This document shows positions 129 through 38,147 of a DNA stretch of 38,456 bases, piece by piece; position 1 is the first letter of the stretch, and each line of letters starts with the position of its first letter. Position numbers and translations under genes: made by a program. The DNA is taken from assembly GCA_020072765.1 (NCBI GenBank), contig JAIQGD010000014.1:1-38456 (forward strand), written 5' to 3'. This DNA is from Terriglobia bacterium (lineage in GTDB: Bacteria; Acidobacteriota; Terriglobia; Acidiferrales; UBA7541). Below the pieces are notes generated by a model that was not told the origin of the DNA, searched no databases, and saw nothing but the letters and a program-made list of their open reading frames with translations.

Positions 129-229
129 AGGCCCACACTTTGGTGGGATTTGGGACGGCCCTCGCGTGAGGGCACAACTACAACCCGCAGTAAACAACAA
201 CCGCAGGAAAAAATTTCAGGGGGTGGGGA

Positions 230-12985: not shown

Positions 12986-15983
<2,998 letters not shown>

Positions 15984-17096
15984 TCAAATCCGCATGGGCA
16001 TGACGACGTAGCGGTAGCGCGTGGACTCGTCGGCCAGGGGACGGAGTTGGCCGGCGGACTGGTCGTCCTTCAGTTCGAAGCTGATGGGGCCATCGGCGGC
16101 GGCGTTGAGGAAATCGAGGATGTACTGGGCGTTGAAGCCGATGGTGATGGGCTCGCCGCTGAATTCCTTCTCGATGGCTTCCTTGGCTTCGCCGTATTCG
16201 GGGCTCGACGCGGAAATTTCGATGCCTTCCTTGGCGAAGACAAACTTCACGGCGTGCGAGCGCTGGTCGGCCAGTTGCGAGACGCGGCGCAGGGCATCCT
16301 GCAATTCGCCGCGCTCGAGCACCACGGTCTTATTGGCATCGCGCGGCAGGACGGCTTCGTAATTGGGGAACTGGCCCGTGAGTTTCCGCGAGGTGAGCAG
16401 GCGTCCGCCGAACTGGAAGAAGAGATGGCTTTCGTCCTGCGCGAATTCGATGAGGCTGTCGTCGCCGGATTCTCCGGCCAGCCGCTGCACTTCGTTCATG
16501 GCCTTCTTGGGGACGAGCACGCGCGTTTCCGAGGACAACCCCTCGAATTTGTGATCGGTCTCCACCATGGCCAGGCGGTGGCCATCGGTGGCCACCATGA
16601 TGAGCGAGCCGGGCTTGATCACCAGGAGAGCGCCGTTCAGCGTATAGCGCGATTCTTCCAGGGAGATGGCGAAAGTGGTTTTGGCGATCAGGCTGGCCAG
16701 CAGTTTGGCGGGAATTTTCACCAGGGCGTGCGGGAAATTCGGCAGCGCGGGAAAATTATCCTTCGACATGCCCACCAGCTTGTAATTCCGGCGATCGCTG
16801 GTGATGTGGACCCAGTGGTTCTCCAGCAGCTTGAAACGAATCTCGCCGTCGGGCAGCAGCCGGACGAGTTCGAGAAGTTTCTTTGCCGGAATCGTCCCGG
16901 CGCCTTCCTTCTTGACCTTGGCTTCGCACGACGTGCGAATGCTCAGTTCCAGATCCGTCGCGGTGATCGTCAGGCGGTTTCCCTTGGCCTCGCAGAGAAG
17001 ATTCGAGAGGATGGGAATGGTCGTCTTGCGTTCGACGACGCCCTGCGTGAGATTCAGTTCTTCGAGTAGATCGAATTTCTTTACGCTGAATTCCAT
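15984..17096 (-). CDS. dnaN: DNA polymerase III beta subunit (sliding clamp)
   Basis: The 370-residue protein is the ring-shaped processivity clamp. It opens MEFSVKKFDLLEELNLTQGVVERKTTIPILSN, a classical DnaN start, then TATDLELSIRTSCEAKVKKEGAGTIPAKKLLELVRLLPDGEIRF, the middle domain with ATDGHRLAMVE, and ends with RYVVMPMRI, the conserved MPMR/L tail. A GTG 42 bases upstream is in frame, but the 14 residues it would add have no clamp similarity, so I start at the ATG 17096. It is downstream of dnaA in the same direction, separated by the candidate origin. Confidence 0.97.
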   Translation of the reverse strand: MEFSVKKFDLLEELNLTQGVVERKTTIPILSNLLCEAKGNRLTITATDLELSIRTSCEAKVKKEGAGTIPAKKLLELVRLLPDGEIRFKLLENHWVHITSDRRNYKLVGMSKDNFPALPNFPHALVKIPAKLLASLIAKTTFAISLEESRYTLNGALLVIKPGSLIMVATDGHRLAMVETDHKFEGLSSETRVLVPKKAMNEVQRLAGESGDDSLIEFAQDESHLFFQFGGRLLTSRKLTGQFPNYEAVLPRDANKTVVLERGELQDALRRVSQLADQRSHAVKFVFAKEGIEISASSPEYGEAKEAIEKEFSGEPITIGFNAQYILDFLNAAADGPISFELKDDQSAGQLRPLADESTRYRYVVMPMRI

Positions 17097-17417
17097 CTCT
17101 GGCAATCCTTGTGGTTTCGGCTCAACCGCTTCACGCACCGCGTGCGATTCTCAATGCCACAGCCACGGCTACTTTACAGCTTTTCTTAATTTCTATAAAT
17201 ATAAGAAACCCCGTAGCCGCCGCCGCACCTGTGGATTGTGCGGGAAACATTGTAACGCGCACGACCAGCTGAGTTTACAACGTTTCCTAGGGTGTGAAAA
17301 TCGGCGCGCTATCGGCGCGCGGCGTTGAAAAACTCCGGCCGGCTGCTACCCCTGAGAGAATTCCACAAAGCATCCACAACGAAAAATCGCAGCCGGCCGG
17401 GTTTTTCGCGCCTAACT
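17097..17417. other. oriC: candidate chromosome origin between dnaA and dnaN
   Basis: This 321-base spacer contains a 28-base tract at 17181-17208 with only three G/C bases, suited to DNA unwinding. Three sequences match TTATCCACA at seven of nine positions: 17230-17238 (reverse), 17359-17367 and 17370-17378. A direct repeat TCGGCGCGC occurs at 17301-17309 and 17312-17320. A perfect 12-bp inverted repeat (17335-17346 with 17389-17400) encloses two of the boxes; on the minus strand it is followed by GTTTTT-like sequence and may also end the dnaA transcript. The location beside dnaA and dnaN supports an origin, but the boxes are weak. Confidence 0.5.
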
Positions 17418-18731
17418 CTAACCGAACGAGTCGAGTAGCCTGTTGATCGTCCTGTTCAATTCCTTGTCCACTTGGCGCAGGGCTTCGATCTTATTGATCG
17501 AGTGCAGGACGGTGGTGTGGTGCTTGCCTCCGAACTGTTTGCCGATTTCCGGCAGAGAGGCGGAGGTGAGCTGTTTCACCAGGAACATGGCGACCTGGCG
17601 CGGGAAGGCGATGACCTTCGAGTTGCTGCGGACCTTCAGGTCCTGGGCGCGCATGCCGAAATGTTCGCCGACGCGCTTCTGAATCTGCTCGATGGAGACG
17701 CGCTTCTCCTGCGTCTCGATGATGTTTTTGAGCACCTGGTGCGCGGTGGCCTGATTGATCTCGATGCCCGTGAGGGAAGCGTAGGCCATCAGGCGGATCA
17801 GCGCACCCTCGAGCTCGCGCACGTTCGATTTGATGGAGCGCGCGATGAATTCGGCCACGTCGTCGGGCAAGCGCACGTGCTCGCTATCGGCTTTCTTCTG
17901 TAGGATGGCGATCTTCGTCTCCAGGTCGGGCATTTGGATGTCGGCGATCAGCCCCCACTCGAAGCGCGACCGCAGCCGCTCCTCAATCGAGGAAATTTCC
18001 TTGGGCGGGCAATCCGAGGAGATCACGATCTGCTTCTGCTGGTCGTAGAGCGCGTTGAAGGTGTGAAAGAACTCTTCCTGGGTGCGCTCGGCGCGGGCGA
18101 TGAACTGGATGTCGTCCACCATCAGGACGTCCATATTGCGGAAGCGGTCGCGAAACGCGGGCATGCGCTCGAAGCGGATCGAGGCGATGACCTCGTTGGT
18201 GAACTTTTCGGCGCTGATGTAAGTCAGGCGCAGGCCCGGGTTGCGGCGCAGCAGCGTGTGGCCGATGGCCTGCATGAGGTGCGTCTTGCCCAGCCCCACA
18301 CCGCCGTACAGGAACAGCGGGTTGTAGGATTTCGATGGCTGCTCGGCCACGGCCATGGCCGCGGCGTGCGCGAACTGGTTCGAGGCGCCCACGATGAACG
18401 TGTCGAAGGTGTAGCGCGGGTTGAGCTGGTGATTGGACGAATCGAAATCAAGCTTGGCCTGTGCTACCGGCGCGACATTGGCCGGAGCGGGTTCCGCTTC
18501 GGTGCAGACGAACTCGAGGGCCATTTCGGGATGGCCGATTTCCTTCAACACCGCGCGCAGCAGCTCGCCGTAGGTCTGCACCAGGCGCTTGCGGAACAGC
18601 CGCGTGGGAACGTGAATCACCAGGCGGTTCTCCTCGGCATGCTCCAGGCGCGTGGGACGGAACCAGGTGGCGAAGCTATGCGGATTGACGCGCCGCTGCG
18701 TGTGCTGGAGGACCTTGTCCCAAAGATTCAT
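17418..18731 (-). CDS. dnaA: chromosomal replication initiator DnaA
   Basis: The 437-residue protein opens MNLWDKVLQHTQRRVNPHSFATWF, the DnaA domain I, with a linker to about residue 105. The AAA+ domain has Walker A GGVGLGKT at 143-150 and Walker B VLMVDDIQF. The C-terminal domain IV has the DNA-binding helix-turn-helix LTSASLPEIGKQFGGKHHTTVLHSI, containing the GGKHHTTV signature that reads DnaA boxes. An upstream in-frame GTG at 18854 would add 41 residues with no DnaA similarity, so I use the ATG at 18731. DnaA-box-like sequences lie just upstream and may autoregulate the gene. Confidence 0.97.
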   Translation of the reverse strand: MNLWDKVLQHTQRRVNPHSFATWFRPTRLEHAEENRLVIHVPTRLFRKRLVQTYGELLRAVLKEIGHPEMALEFVCTEAEPAPANVAPVAQAKLDFDSSNHQLNPRYTFDTFIVGASNQFAHAAAMAVAEQPSKSYNPLFLYGGVGLGKTHLMQAIGHTLLRRNPGLRLTYISAEKFTNEVIASIRFERMPAFRDRFRNMDVLMVDDIQFIARAERTQEEFFHTFNALYDQQKQIVISSDCPPKEISSIEERLRSRFEWGLIADIQMPDLETKIAILQKKADSEHVRLPDDVAEFIARSIKSNVRELEGALIRLMAYASLTGIEINQATAHQVLKNIIETQEKRVSIEQIQKRVGEHFGMRAQDLKVRSNSKVIAFPRQVAMFLVKQLTSASLPEIGKQFGGKHHTTVLHSINKIEALRQVDKELNRTINRLLDSFG

Positions 18732-18753
18732 CCGAAAGAATGCCCTTGCCGCA

Positions 18754-19007
18754 ATTTCCACCGATGTGGAAATGCTGTGGAAATAGCCTGCCCCCGCCAA
18801 CGTGAGGGGACTGTCTTGGTCTGATCCGTCAGGTTCGATGTTGCTGGGACGCACCCTGCGCTCTTTGTATCTGGGGAGCGCTCCCGCCCGCGACTTACCG
18901 TCTTCGATACGTGAGCCGGGATTCTGCCTAAACGCGGCGCAATGAGCAAGAGAAAATTACGCGAAGATATCCGGCGCGCTCCACATAGGATGCACAGTTT
19001 TTCCACA
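18754..19007. promoter_or_regulatory. DnaA-box cluster upstream of dnaA
   Basis: TTTTCCACA at 18999-19007 fits the TTWTNCACA consensus fully. Two tandem TGTGGAAAT copies at 18765-18773 and 18776-18784 (ATTTCCACA on the minus strand) match at eight of nine. The first forms a perfect 8-bp inverted repeat with 18754-18761. GGATGCACA at 18989-18997 matches at seven of nine. These sit 20-280 bases before dnaA, where they could form part of a bipartite origin or an autoregulatory site. The surrounding 18732-19208 has no other gene that I can support. Confidence 0.55.
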
Positions 19008-21891: not shown

Positions 21892-22686
21892 ATGACCGAT
21901 GGGTTAGACGCACTGAACGCGGCCACCAAAAGAATCCTCAGCTATCAGCCTCGCCCGCAAAAGCGCAAAGCCCTAACCGCACCATCAGCGGTCTGCAAAC
22001 CGAGGCTTCTGGATCTTTTCTGCTGCGCTGGCGGCGCAGGTATCGGTTACAGTCAGGCGGGTTTTGAGGTTGTAGGGGTGGATATTAAGCCTCAACCGAA
22101 TTATCCGCTTCCATTCATTCAGGCGGATGCCCTCACACTCGATCCGAAGTTCATTGCGCTTTTCGACGTCGTTCACGCTTCCCCACCATGTCAGGCATAC
22201 TCTGATCTCGCCAAAAGGAACGGTAACGCCGAGGAGTGGCCGCGCCTGATTGAGCCGGTTCGGGACATGCTAATCCGGTCCAGCCTTCCCTATGTCATCG
22301 AGAATGTGGACGGTGCCCCCTTACTCAATGCCGTTGTCCTTTGCGGAACAATGTTTCCCGAGTTGCGTGTGCTCCGACATCGGTTATTTGAGGCCAATTT
22401 CGAAATTGTGCCACCGCCTCACAAGAAGCATCCGAAGGTCCATACTTTTGATCGCCGAAAATCCCATTTCGGGAAAACCGATGAGTGGAAGGATTTTGTG
22501 CAGGTCACGGGCGGCGGCAATTGCACGATCGCTGCGGCGCGCGAGGCTATGGGCATCGATTGGATGACAAAGAACGAAATTAACGAATCAATCCCGCCAG
22601 CTTATACACGCTTTATCGGTCGGGAATTACTTCGCCAACTGTCCTTTAGCGAACAAGAATCGGCAAAGTCGTACAGAAATGCGTAA
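21892..22686 (+). CDS. DNA cytosine-C5 methyltransferase
   Basis: The 264-residue protein transfers a methyl group from S-adenosylmethionine to cytosine C5. Motif I is LLDLFCCAGGAGIGYSQAGF (39-58). Motif IV is HASPPCQAYS with catalytic C100. Motif VI is YVIENVD (ENV at 137-139). Motif VIII is RHRLFE (162-167). Motif X is near IPPAYTRFIGRELLRQL. It is short for the family and has a small target-recognition region (about 168-230). AAGGAG lies nine bases before the ATG. The stop overlaps the next gene by eight bases. Together with the HNH and Vsr genes it forms a restriction-modification-repair cassette whose bases look less GC-rich than the surroundings, which suggests transfer. Confidence 0.93.
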   Translation: MTDGLDALNAATKRILSYQPRPQKRKALTAPSAVCKPRLLDLFCCAGGAGIGYSQAGFEVVGVDIKPQPNYPLPFIQADALTLDPKFIALFDVVHASPPCQAYSDLAKRNGNAEEWPRLIEPVRDMLIRSSLPYVIENVDGAPLLNAVVLCGTMFPELRVLRHRLFEANFEIVPPPHKKHPKVHTFDRRKSHFGKTDEWKDFVQVTGGGNCTIAAAREAMGIDWMTKNEINESIPPAYTRFIGRELLRQLSFSEQESAKSYRNA

Positions 22687-23248
22687 ACCAGGATCGAAAG
22701 AGCGGATCAGGCGTTTCCTGCTCGCTCACATCGGGCAGGTAGTTACATCCATACAGATTCGTGATGCCGCTGGCAAGGGCGTTAGTGAGTGGGCCCGACG
22801 TGTGCGCGAACTACGCGAGCAAGAAGGCTGGCCGATCATTACGCATAACGATAGTGCGGACCTGAAGCCCGGCCAGTATCTGTTGAATGAAAAACCGCCG
22901 AAGAAGAAGGGAGTAAGGTTTTCACAGGGTATCTCGGCAAAACTCCGCGCAGAAGTACTCGACCGCAACGGCTTCACCTGCCAAATGTGCGGCCTTGCGC
23001 CCGGTGACATTGATTCGGCAACCGGTCGCAAGGTCAGGCTTCACATCGGCCACATCAAAGACAAGAGTCTCGGCGGCAAGGACGAACTATCAAATCTCCG
23101 GGCACTATGTTCGACCTGTAACCAGGGCGCGAAGAATATCACCGGCGAAAAGCCTACCGGAATGTGGCTGCTATCCCAAATCCGCCGGGCCGGACAAGAT
23201 GAGCAGCGCGCCGTATTTGATTGGCTTCGCAAAAAATTCGGCGCATGA
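22679..23248 (+). CDS. HNH endonuclease with N-terminal winged-helix-like domain (probable restriction enzyme)
   Basis: The 189-residue protein has two parts. Residues about 8-69 resemble a winged helix (RIRRFLLAHIGQVVTSIQIRDAAG, RVRELREQEGWPIITHND, LKPGQYLL). Residues 88-160 form an HNH nuclease: a zinc site from C101/C104 (CQMCG) and C144/C147 (CSTC), the catalytic HIGH at 122-125 within LHIGHIKDKSLGGKD, and N139 in ELSNLRALCSTCNQGAKN. Its start overlaps the methyltransferase stop and its stop overlaps the next start. Position and domain make it the likely restriction endonuclease of the cassette; the target sequence cannot be read from the protein. Confidence 0.88.
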   Translation: MRKPGSKERIRRFLLAHIGQVVTSIQIRDAAGKGVSEWARRVRELREQEGWPIITHNDSADLKPGQYLLNEKPPKKKGVRFSQGISAKLRAEVLDRNGFTCQMCGLAPGDIDSATGRKVRLHIGHIKDKSLGGKDELSNLRALCSTCNQGAKNITGEKPTGMWLLSQIRRAGQDEQRAVFDWLRKKFGA

Positions 23249-35635: not shown

Positions 35636-36286
35636 ATGAACGACCGATTGACTGAATTGCTTGTTGCCATCGTCTCTTACGTCACGGAGCGCGACGGATA
35701 CGTTACGAAGACAAAGCTGCTGAAACTGGTGTACCTGTTTGACGTTGAATTCTACAGGTCACACGGTAGGATTTTTTCAGGTTTTCAGTGGAAGTACTTC
35801 CACCTTGGTCCCTGGACGAGGGAATTCGATCCAATCCTCGATCAGCTCGTGGCCCGTGGCGAGCTAACAGAGGACAGAGTGGAGCGGCCAGAATTTGACG
35901 CAAAGTTTCTTCGCTCGACGGGCCCTGCCGATCTAAGAAGGCCGTTCGACAACTACAGAGATGAGGCAATCCTCAAGGAGCTGTTGGATACGTGGGGTCC
36001 TAGTCCGACGGGAGAGATTCTTGATTATGTGTATTTCCGGACGGAACCTATGGAACACGGGGTTAGGAGCGAGAATCTGGATTTTTCGAGGGTTCTTCAA
36101 CAACTGCCCGGCACCTACAAAAGATCAGCTTCACATAAGACAGACGGTGAGATCAAGAAGCTGCGGAGAGAATTTGGTCAGAAGATGGCTACCCGGCTAT
36201 CGTCGCCGACTTTTCAATTTACTGAGCCGCGCTACGACGAGGAGTTCCGCATGGCGATGGAAAAGTTGGACAGCGACGACGTGTGA
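35636..36286 (+). CDS. Panacea-domain protein (DUF4065/SocA-like), probable antitoxin
   Basis: A 216-residue protein. Its N-terminal half matches the Panacea fold: VTKTKLLKLVYLFDVEFYRSHG (residues 23-44) and FSGFQWKYFHLGPWTREFDPIL (47-68), the KLLKLVYLFD and GPW positions being diagnostic. The second half (DEAILKELLDTWGPSPTGEILDYVYFRTEPM, 109-139) fits the family's C-terminal part. A charged tail from about 165 follows. Panacea proteins act as general antitoxins fused or paired with various toxins. The stop overlaps the next start by one base (TGATG). No ribosome site is seen, so coupling to an upstream leader is possible. The gene lies in an A/T-richer island. Confidence 0.72.
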   Translation: MNDRLTELLVAIVSYVTERDGYVTKTKLLKLVYLFDVEFYRSHGRIFSGFQWKYFHLGPWTREFDPILDQLVARGELTEDRVERPEFDAKFLRSTGPADLRRPFDNYRDEAILKELLDTWGPSPTGEILDYVYFRTEPMEHGVRSENLDFSRVLQQLPGTYKRSASHKTDGEIKKLRREFGQKMATRLSSPTFQFTEPRYDEEFRMAMEKLDSDDV

Positions 36287-36969
36287 TGTTTATTGACGAG
36301 TATTTCGGTGGAGGTTTCTATAGGCAACTGCCTCTCGGATATCACCAACACTTCTCGTTCGGCCAACTATTTAGAACACACGCCTACTATCCGCACGAAC
36401 ATTTGGAGTTGTGGCGACCCATCCCCGACCCGAACGAGCCGACCAAGACGCTGGCTTCTCAGTTTCAGATAATGGCTGCAGGACAGGATGCTTTTAGAAG
36501 GAACATACCCCTCGCTTTACCAAAGCTCGAAACGAATGAGGAGTTCTTGGTTGTCCGGGCTAAGAAACGCCCGATCGTACTGATAATGCCAGAAACGCCC
36601 CAATTTGGCGTAGACAATAAAGGTTATCGCGGAAAAGTTCAGCGCCGCCTCTGCCTTGTCGCGCAGGTATTTGGGCTTGCAGACCCGAAAACTCATAGAC
36701 AGGAGTTTAGTCCCTTGTTCGTAGAACGTGTCAGAAAGATGGAGTTCCCGCAGCTGATGTTCCTTCCGGCTTGCCCAGGTTTCTTGGAGGTCGACAGCCT
36801 GCTGCGTTTGGACGAATTGCAATCAGTATTCACGCCCAATCTCGAACCAACCAGGTTGGCGTTGGGAGATGAAGTGGCGAAGGTACTCCGCGGTCAATTG
36901 CAATATCTTTTCGCCCAAGCGGGTCCAACGGAATATACTGAACTCAGAGAACTCCTCCTCAACGACTAG
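36286..36969 (+). CDS. partner of the Panacea protein with MazF/PemK-like features (possible toxin)
   Basis: A 227-residue protein that I cannot place with certainty. The start reads MFIDEYFGGGFYRQLPLGY. Features that recall the MazF/PemK ribonuclease fold are FSFGQLFRTHAYYPHE (23-38), NEEFLVVRAKKRPIVLIMPE (84-103, like the beta-strand with the conserved RPVVVI), a strand FPQLMFLPACPGF (154-166), and SLLRLDELQSVFTPNLEPTRLALGDEVAKVLRGQLQYLF (171-209), resembling the S.v.LDqlrtvd..RL...ig.L...... end of MazF. It is about twice MazF length, with an insert at 39-83. The overlap with the Panacea gene (TGATG) supports a toxin-antitoxin pair. A GTG at 36283 is an alternative start. Confidence 0.55.
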   Translation: MFIDEYFGGGFYRQLPLGYHQHFSFGQLFRTHAYYPHEHLELWRPIPDPNEPTKTLASQFQIMAAGQDAFRRNIPLALPKLETNEEFLVVRAKKRPIVLIMPETPQFGVDNKGYRGKVQRRLCLVAQVFGLADPKTHRQEFSPLFVERVRKMEFPQLMFLPACPGFLEVDSLLRLDELQSVFTPNLEPTRLALGDEVAKVLRGQLQYLFAQAGPTEYTELRELLLND

Positions 36970-37003: not shown

Positions 37004-37786
37004 ATGGCAGACCCCACCCCTGCTTCAAAAACGTTCATTGAATATCTGTCGCAGTTGTCCCCCATCTTTCTGCTGGTTGTCGGCGGTCTCGTCACTCACT
37101 TATGGAGCCGCTACCGCAGTCGCACAGGCCGTCTCACTTGGAGAGCATGGCACAGTCCAGTGGCCGTCGCTGCTGATTATCCCCAACTAGGGCGGGTTAC
37201 CGTCCAATTTAATGGCATGCCCGTGAACCACCTACACCACACAAGGGTGGAGTTTACCAACGATAGCAGCAGGGACCTAAAAGAGGTCGAAGTTATGCTC
37301 TCATTTGGATCAACCGGCCATGTCATTAGTTCGACTGGTGTGGTCGAAGGAACGCTCGCAATCGTTCCGTTCGACACAGACTACTTGGGTCTATACGCGA
37401 ATGCGACACAACAACAAATCAACACCCTGAACACGTACGTCGTGCACAGAATTCCGGTGCTAAATCGCAGGCAGAAGTCCACGTTCACAATGCTGGTGGC
37501 CCGCGACGACACGAGCTCCCCGCAGGTCACTGTGTCGTCCAACCATCTCGGAATGAGGACAGAGTTCTTGCCCGCGACGCCTGAGCTTTTCGGGGTACCT
37601 GTAACCCTCGCTCTCCTGGTGGGACTTCCAGCTAGCCTTGCATGCGCTCTCTTGGTAGTTCGTTTCCAGCACCATAGCCATCGGTACCTTACAGTGGCAT
37701 TCGCATGGTTACTTGGGACTGTTTGTATGAGCATTGGCGCGGAACTGGTCCGTCTCGGGAAGCAATTCTTGAGAATCCTTGGTTGA
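37004..37786 (+). CDS. membrane protein of unknown function in the Panacea island
   Basis: A 260-residue protein that I do not recognise. One helix near residues 18-35 (SPIFLLVVGGLVTHLW) is followed by a beta-rich domain of about 150 residues (TWRAWHSPVAVAADYPQLGRVTVQFNGMPVNHLHHTRVEFTND and LNRRQKSTFTMLVARDDTSSPQVTVSSNHLG), and two helices near 196-220 and 228-250. It lies 34 bases after the previous gene in the same direction, in similar A/T-richer DNA, and may be a third component of the module or simply a passenger. No ribosome site is evident, and no catalytic motif is seen. Confidence 0.65.
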   Translation: MADPTPASKTFIEYLSQLSPIFLLVVGGLVTHLWSRYRSRTGRLTWRAWHSPVAVAADYPQLGRVTVQFNGMPVNHLHHTRVEFTNDSSRDLKEVEVMLSFGSTGHVISSTGVVEGTLAIVPFDTDYLGLYANATQQQINTLNTYVVHRIPVLNRRQKSTFTMLVARDDTSSPQVTVSSNHLGMRTEFLPATPELFGVPVTLALLVGLPASLACALLVVRFQHHSHRYLTVAFAWLLGTVCMSIGAELVRLGKQFLRILG

Positions 37787-38147
37787 CGTTTCCTTGCGCG
37801 CCCGGCCCGCATTCCCGGAATTCTGGCTGGCCGGAAACTCCATCGGCGTCCAGAAACCGACCCTCCGGCAAAAGTCCACAGACTCTGACCGTTGCATTTC
37901 TCCGCACGGGTACTAACATGGATACGTGGAGCAATGGTTCAATCGCGGCGCACGTGAAGCGACGGCCGACGGCCACCTCCCACGGGCCGGCGGGATTCTG
38001 GCGCGCTCATTTTCTACCCGGTACAAGCCTGCGAGTAGAAAACGCTACAACTTGTTGAAAACACACGGCCGAGGCCCGTTCTACCCGGTACACCTTGCGA
38101 TCGCCGCCGCAAGGCTCGGAGCGCAGCCAGGAGTGGCTATGCCACGC
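37787..38147. other. spacer after the island, with no supported gene
   Basis: This 361-base stretch separates the island from the cytochrome fragment. Frames here are short and have Pro/Ser/Arg-rich translations without motifs. It contains the direct repeat described at 38012-38092. The rise in GC here suggests a return to chromosomal backbone. Confidence 0.45.
38012..38092 (+). repeat. 14-base direct repeat with 53-base spacing
   Basis: TTCTACCCGGTACA occurs at 38012-38025 and again at 38079-38092. Both copies are exact and in the same orientation, with 53 bases between them. It lies just beyond the A/T-richer island. It could be a short duplication or an integration footprint; no integrase gene is nearby. 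Confidence 0.55.

Follow-up and report, generated by a model that had tools for sequence, protein, structure and literature searches.

Panacea antitoxins restrain many toxins that are unrelated to one another. PemK was among the partners of Panacea described by Kurata et al. 2022, who tested two MazF-like pairs (PMC8832971). These pairs came from Pseudomonas moraviensis and Bifidobacterium ruminantium; the toxins were toxic in E. coli and were rescued by the Panacea antitoxin, they resemble EndoA/PemK/MazF only by HHpred, and they block protein synthesis (PMC8832971). The NetFlax analysis placed MazF/PemK among the commonest folds and proposed that Panacea is a sensor where other domains neutralize (PMC10440598). 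In the classical system, the β1-β2 linker of MazF is a gate that is displaced by MazE (PMC8086154).

The window (the whole stretch of DNA analyzed, 38,456 nucleotides) carries two genes, p1 and p2, that probably form a type II PanAT toxin-antitoxin module with a Panacea antitoxin and a MazF-fold toxin (Table 1). The locus shares with PanAT loci encoding a MazF/PemK-like PanT the same two-gene operon, the Panacea antitoxin and a MazF-fold partner without an ordinary domain match. The original prediction suggested that the pairing may be uncommon; it is not undescribed, since Panacea proteins with MazF-like toxins have already been reported and tested (PMC8832971). We compared p2 with the P. moraviensis and B. 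ruminantium PanT proteins (WP_083354365.1 and WP_081815666.1) by published description, and p2 may belong to a toxin cluster that is already known. Thus, the pairing is known, while the toxin family, with its enlarged β1-β2 region, helical insert and lost catalytic Thr, may be new when set against published PanT descriptions.

Table 1. Predicted features of the p1-p2 locus, with positions numbered along the window
Feature	Residues	Positions	Strand	Remarks
p1, predicted Panacea/SocA-like antitoxin, first gene		35636-36286	+	ATG start, 216 aa
p1 architecture	Panacea core about 1-156; helices 170-189, 202-212			AF2 model, pLDDT 86
p2, predicted MazF-fold toxin, second gene		36286-36969	+	ATG start, 227 aa
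p2 enlarged β1-β2 region	38-91	36397-36558	+	From model; block pLDDT 46-82, low confidence
p2 R95-P96, equivalent of MazF catalytic/RNA-binding Arg-Pro	95-96	36568-36573	+	From alignment with MazFs
p2 F129, position of MazF catalytic Thr (E. coli T52)	129	36670-36672	+	From alignment
p2 second insert	131-156; short helix 143-150	36676-36753	+	From model; between strands 123-130 and 157-160

The p1 stop codon TGA (36284-36286) and the p2 ATG have an A in common. As predicted from the sequence TGATG, the genes overlap by one base, with p2 beginning on the last base of the p1 stop codon; an alternative p2 start is an in-frame GTG at 36283. They are two separate overlapping genes, so their description as fused was wrong. 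The predicted A/T-rich character of the region was also seen, with a GC content of 0.51 at 36-37 kb, whereas the greater part of the window has about 0.60-0.68.

To place the pair in a wider context, 84,980 species genomes were scanned. The 32 loci found fall in about seven phyla (Acidobacteriota, Thermodesulfobacteriota, Myxococcota, Pseudomonadota, Nitrospirota, Bacteroidota and Kiritimatiellota), named as placed in the trees and with binning errors possible where a locus is a lone small MAG contig. The window genome itself is an Acidobacteriota member, as loci from genomes of its phylum (L029-L032) had scores identical to those of contigs named Acidobacteria and Geothrix. In 29 of the 32 loci, p1 comes immediately upstream of p2; of the remaining three, two are cut by a contig end and one is a fragment. 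In a second sample of 345 genomes, from the phylum of a Desulfobacterales member, p2 was present in 16, with p1 adjoining in 15. The proposed survey of adjacency therefore found p2 homologues nearly always beside a Panacea gene. The 16th locus of the second sample (L116, 1486-1809, minus strand) is a frame of 108 aa to which the p1 profile and the p2 profile both match, apparently a deletion remnant that joined the genes. The genes overlap by 4-47 nt in the 26 other pairs measured, with script-chosen start codons, compared with 1 nt in the window. The features that define a PanAT locus were found: two genes within 100 nt, occurrence in at least two species, an operon of at most three genes and no constant third gene. 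For 37 pairs, the distance matrices of p1 and p2 correlated at r 0.86, and 2000 permutations reached 0.40 at best; the r value ignores species kinship and in part reflects shared vertical history. Because dozens of genomes have relatives of both proteins with their order kept, p1-p2 is a conserved two-gene module, far above chance.

The first gene had been assigned to Panacea from the motifs KLLKLVYLFD and GPW. Both motifs are present, and 27 of 29 p1 relatives match PF13274 at E≤1 (best, 1.2e-6), in agreement with that assignment. The window p1 scored 14.1 bits, under the cut-off of 25.7, and eight relatives scored singly reached 15-23 bits. The family has a GPV-type signature, in which the third residue is mostly W, not V, and a KLxKLxYxxD helix; K30, D36, G44, W52, G58-P59, Y133 and M139 of the core are invariant in 29 members. 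The best structural matches of the p1 model were the 187-188-residue chains 7yk3_B/D of a Mycobacterium tuberculosis DarTG complex (Foldseek probability 1.00, E 0.014; VIA Z 8.7, 3.9 Å over 129 residues), with 8% identity over the aligned part. The next matches, winged-helix proteins at Z 6-7.7, were at background level. p1 is probably a divergent Panacea/SocA protein. The DarT toxin of DarTG is an ADP-ribosyltransferase and does not have a MazF fold. SocA of the SocAB system is likewise a Panacea protein (PF13274), but it is partnered by SocB, whereas the partner of p1 is MazF-like.

The RPIVLIM strand (residues 95-101) and the SLLRLDELQSVF end (residues 171-182), from which a likeness to MazF had been proposed, are both found in p2. 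Family searches gave no match for the window p2 in Pfam, NCBIfam, PADLOC or PHROGs and none beyond chance for 26 aligned relatives in Pfam, NCBIfam or PADLOC. The PF02452 profile matched 0 of 27 family members at E≤1, and the family profile found a single chance-level match among PDB sequences (All3315, E 0.75). The family is widespread and without a name in the databases searched. The AF2 model of p2 is only fair (pLDDT 67; poor at residues 1-20 and in parts of 38-68 and 113-120). Among PDB structures, the best 50 Foldseek matches listed were all MazF (top E 6e-4, probability 1.00), and the top VIA match was Staphylococcus aureus MazF (Z 11.8, 3.0 Å over 110 residues), with MazFs leading the VIA list as well. 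This assigns p2 the SH3/MazF-like fold that had been anticipated. Phage PemK-like proteins ranked first in a viral structure library. When, as an independent comparison, the family profile was aligned by hhalign with a profile of 20 MazFs from the same phylum (probability 89), KKRP, LVAPYYG and SILRLDQ were paired with KTRP, VAAITS and SVVLLNQ. As modeled, the fold of p2 is a MazF barrel.

p2 resembles MazF/PemK (PF02452) in its barrel fold and in two motifs, RP and L-x-x-D-Q-like, which line up in the alignment. It differs in having a larger β1-β2 region, a helical insert, Tyr or Phe in place of the catalytic Thr, no PF02452 match and a Panacea partner rather than MazE. Members of the p2 family have 227-250 aa compared with about 110-120 for MazF, and the size of about 227 residues given in the original prediction is real. 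In the model, the first core strand (27-34) and the RP strand (92-100) lie about 57 residues apart, and the local hhalign match to MazF begins only at the KKRP strand. An insert predicted at residues 39-83 roughly matches this region between strands; the second insert, of about 26 residues and with the family motif GxxPxFVERIRxxEYPQ, had been missed. The enlarged β1-β2 region is a likely Panacea contact because it lies where MazE gates MazF.

The active-site positions of p2 were compared with those of these 20 MazFs. R95, P96 and the LxxD-motif Asp are each conserved in 36 of 37 members of the p2 family, and the Arg is present in 20/20 MazFs. At the catalytic-Thr position, the family has Tyr (33 members), Phe (3, the window among them) or a gap (1); Thr or Ser occurs in 0/37, versus 20/20 ordinary MazFs (Thr in 18, Ser in 2). 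The p2 family is therefore a natural set of MazF folds without the catalytic Thr. In Klebsiella pneumoniae MazF, Thr51 is needed for both RNase activity and toxicity, while in some other MazFs a Thr-to-Ala change lowers activity only slightly (PMC8086154). Given these small effects, loss of the Thr is a warning rather than a disproof of RNase activity. Since the Arg is kept but the Thr is replaced, we infer RNA cleavage by p2 with slightly more confidence than its absence.

p2 could instead use the MazF fold without cutting RNA, by RNA binding alone or by hitting some other target, much as CcdB, a sister fold, acts on gyrase. We regard this as a tentative alternative. It would account for the family-wide lack of Thr/Ser and agrees with the essential role of Thr51 in the K. 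pneumoniae enzyme (PMC8086154), and CcdB structures also match the p2 model at Z 9-10. MazFs outscore CcdB, however (Z 11.8 versus 9.9), p2 retains the Arg, the Pro and the LDQ-like Asp that belong to the RNA groove of MazF, and the mild Thr-to-Ala effects (PMC8086154) again weaken the argument from the missing Thr. A related and equally doubtful proposal is that p2 represents a distinct, undescribed Panacea-controlled toxin family, in which a MazF barrel with two inserts has abandoned Arg/Thr chemistry for an aromatic residue. Such a toxin would target another RNA or work by a mechanism other than a nuclease's and would belong to a phage-sensing module in prophages and defense islands.

The distribution of the pair is patchy. 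In the taxonomic family of the window, a clear p2 was found in 1 of 89 genomes, the window genome itself, and three other genomes have p2 fragments (E 0.001-0.008). On IMG/VR contig L100 (4247-5738) and on L110 (689-2172), the pair lies between phage terminase and portal genes. These are two different phage contexts, with the pair in a moron-like position. Restriction-modification or BREX genes were neighbors in single cases: HsdM (L038), a type III restriction endonuclease (L042), a type III methyltransferase (L045), BrxL (L051) and a DNA methylase (L064). In tblastn searches of plasmid and phage collections, the window p2 and that of L062 had no match; the window p1 had none in the plasmid collection, and among viral contigs there was none for the window p1 or A3 and one for A4. 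The pair is mobile, horizontally moving and prophage-borne, and the module is probably phage related. The prophage site next to terminase and portal genes fits the idea of Panacea sensing phage infection.

Together, these results suggest how the p1-p2 toxin-antitoxin module might work. p1 (PanA) would be made first, bind p2 (PanT) and hold the MazF/PemK-barrel toxin inactive, probably through the enlarged β1-β2 region of p2. A trigger that removed or altered p1 would free p2, which could then bind single-stranded RNA in the MazF groove and stop translation, most likely by cutting the RNA with Arg95 and with an aromatic residue in place of the MazF Thr. The module, traveling horizontally and in prophages, would probably serve in phage defense or phage-phage exclusion.

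The toxin-antitoxin assignment is supported by the neutralization of MazF-like toxins by Panacea antitoxins in E. coli (PMC8832971) and by the kept gene order and overlap, the r of 0.86, the Panacea matches, the MazF fold and the placement in prophages and near restriction-modification or BREX genes. It is weakened by the window p1, which falls below the PF13274 cut-off and is without the tail of most relatives, and by p2, whose model is fair, with the insert and first 20 residues poor, and whose catalytic Thr is missing family-wide. Toxicity of p2 is predicted by analogy, and neither PADLOC nor Pfam contains the family, which would also suit a non-toxic MazF-like subunit or regulator working with Panacea, for example, as a two-part sensor. 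We consider such a role highly improbable because the overlapping order with the antitoxin first, the patchy spread and the prophage carriage are typical of toxin-antitoxin systems and because the Panacea partners tested so far are toxins (PMC8832971).

Within the family, the two proteins vary together. Of 37 pairs, 31 combine a p1 that has a C-terminal W-x-S-x-x-R tail with a p2 that has a WW motif near its start; p1 of L063 has a slightly altered C-terminal tail. Both features are absent in five pairs (the window and L112-L115) and in L004, whose p2 is frameshifted. Both trees support the grouping of L112-L115 as a clade (clade B; 98/96 and 100/100). The joint absence suggests that the antitoxin tail and the toxin WW motif touch each other, but it is not proof, since the split represents only one or two events. 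The two clades thus make the contact surface testable by swaps, and the family supplies dozens of pairs that co-vary while sharing a single toxin fold.

The window p1, which unlike the main clade has no W-S-R tail at its C terminus, groups with clade B (97/86), and the p2 tree gives the window no resolved place. The terminal branches of the window are 4.35 (p1) and 3.39 (p2), versus medians of 0.67 and 0.54. These data place the window pair in the family as a divergent member, of unsure clade B membership. Long branches and a lost tail might also be seen if the window copy were decaying and perhaps inactive. Its p2 VAPYY motif has F for Y and Q for P, and degenerate copies are found elsewhere (L042, L061, L065, L004 and the 108-aa remnant in L116). 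Decay is nevertheless rather unlikely: both window frames are intact and the overlap is retained, p2 keeps K93, R95, P96, R174 and D176, and the clade B relatives without the tail still have intact genes.

Other features of the window were noted around the pair. A gene that lies 35 nt 3′ of p2 in the same low-GC patch (37004-37786, plus strand) encodes a protein of 260 aa, in which an apparent membrane segment is seen close to each end. It was dropped as a third component because it has no Pfam match or other family and the flanks of the relatives contain no constant third gene. A window search gave no convincing direct repeats bracketing the pair. Downstream of the low-GC patch, an exact 14-nt direct repeat, TTCTACCCGGTACA, occurs at 38012-38025 and 38079-38092, 67 nt apart, and is a possible edge of the insert. 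In an empty-site comparison, the upstream transporter was 54% identical in one family member (L131); no other gene tried lies near it there, so the comparison marked no insertion borders. A promoter and terminator scan was blank and uninformative. At 21892-23248 (plus strand), an apparent DNA cytosine methyltransferase (264 aa, LLDLFCCAGGAGIGYSQAGF) overlaps an apparent HNH endonuclease (189 aa), as judged by eye. This patch also has a low GC content (0.54) and looks like a second acquired insert, of restriction type. gyrB, dnaN and dnaA, likewise recognized by eye, stand in a row at 12986-18854 (minus strand), so the window probably includes the replication origin region, with dnaA about 17 kb from the p1-p2 pair.
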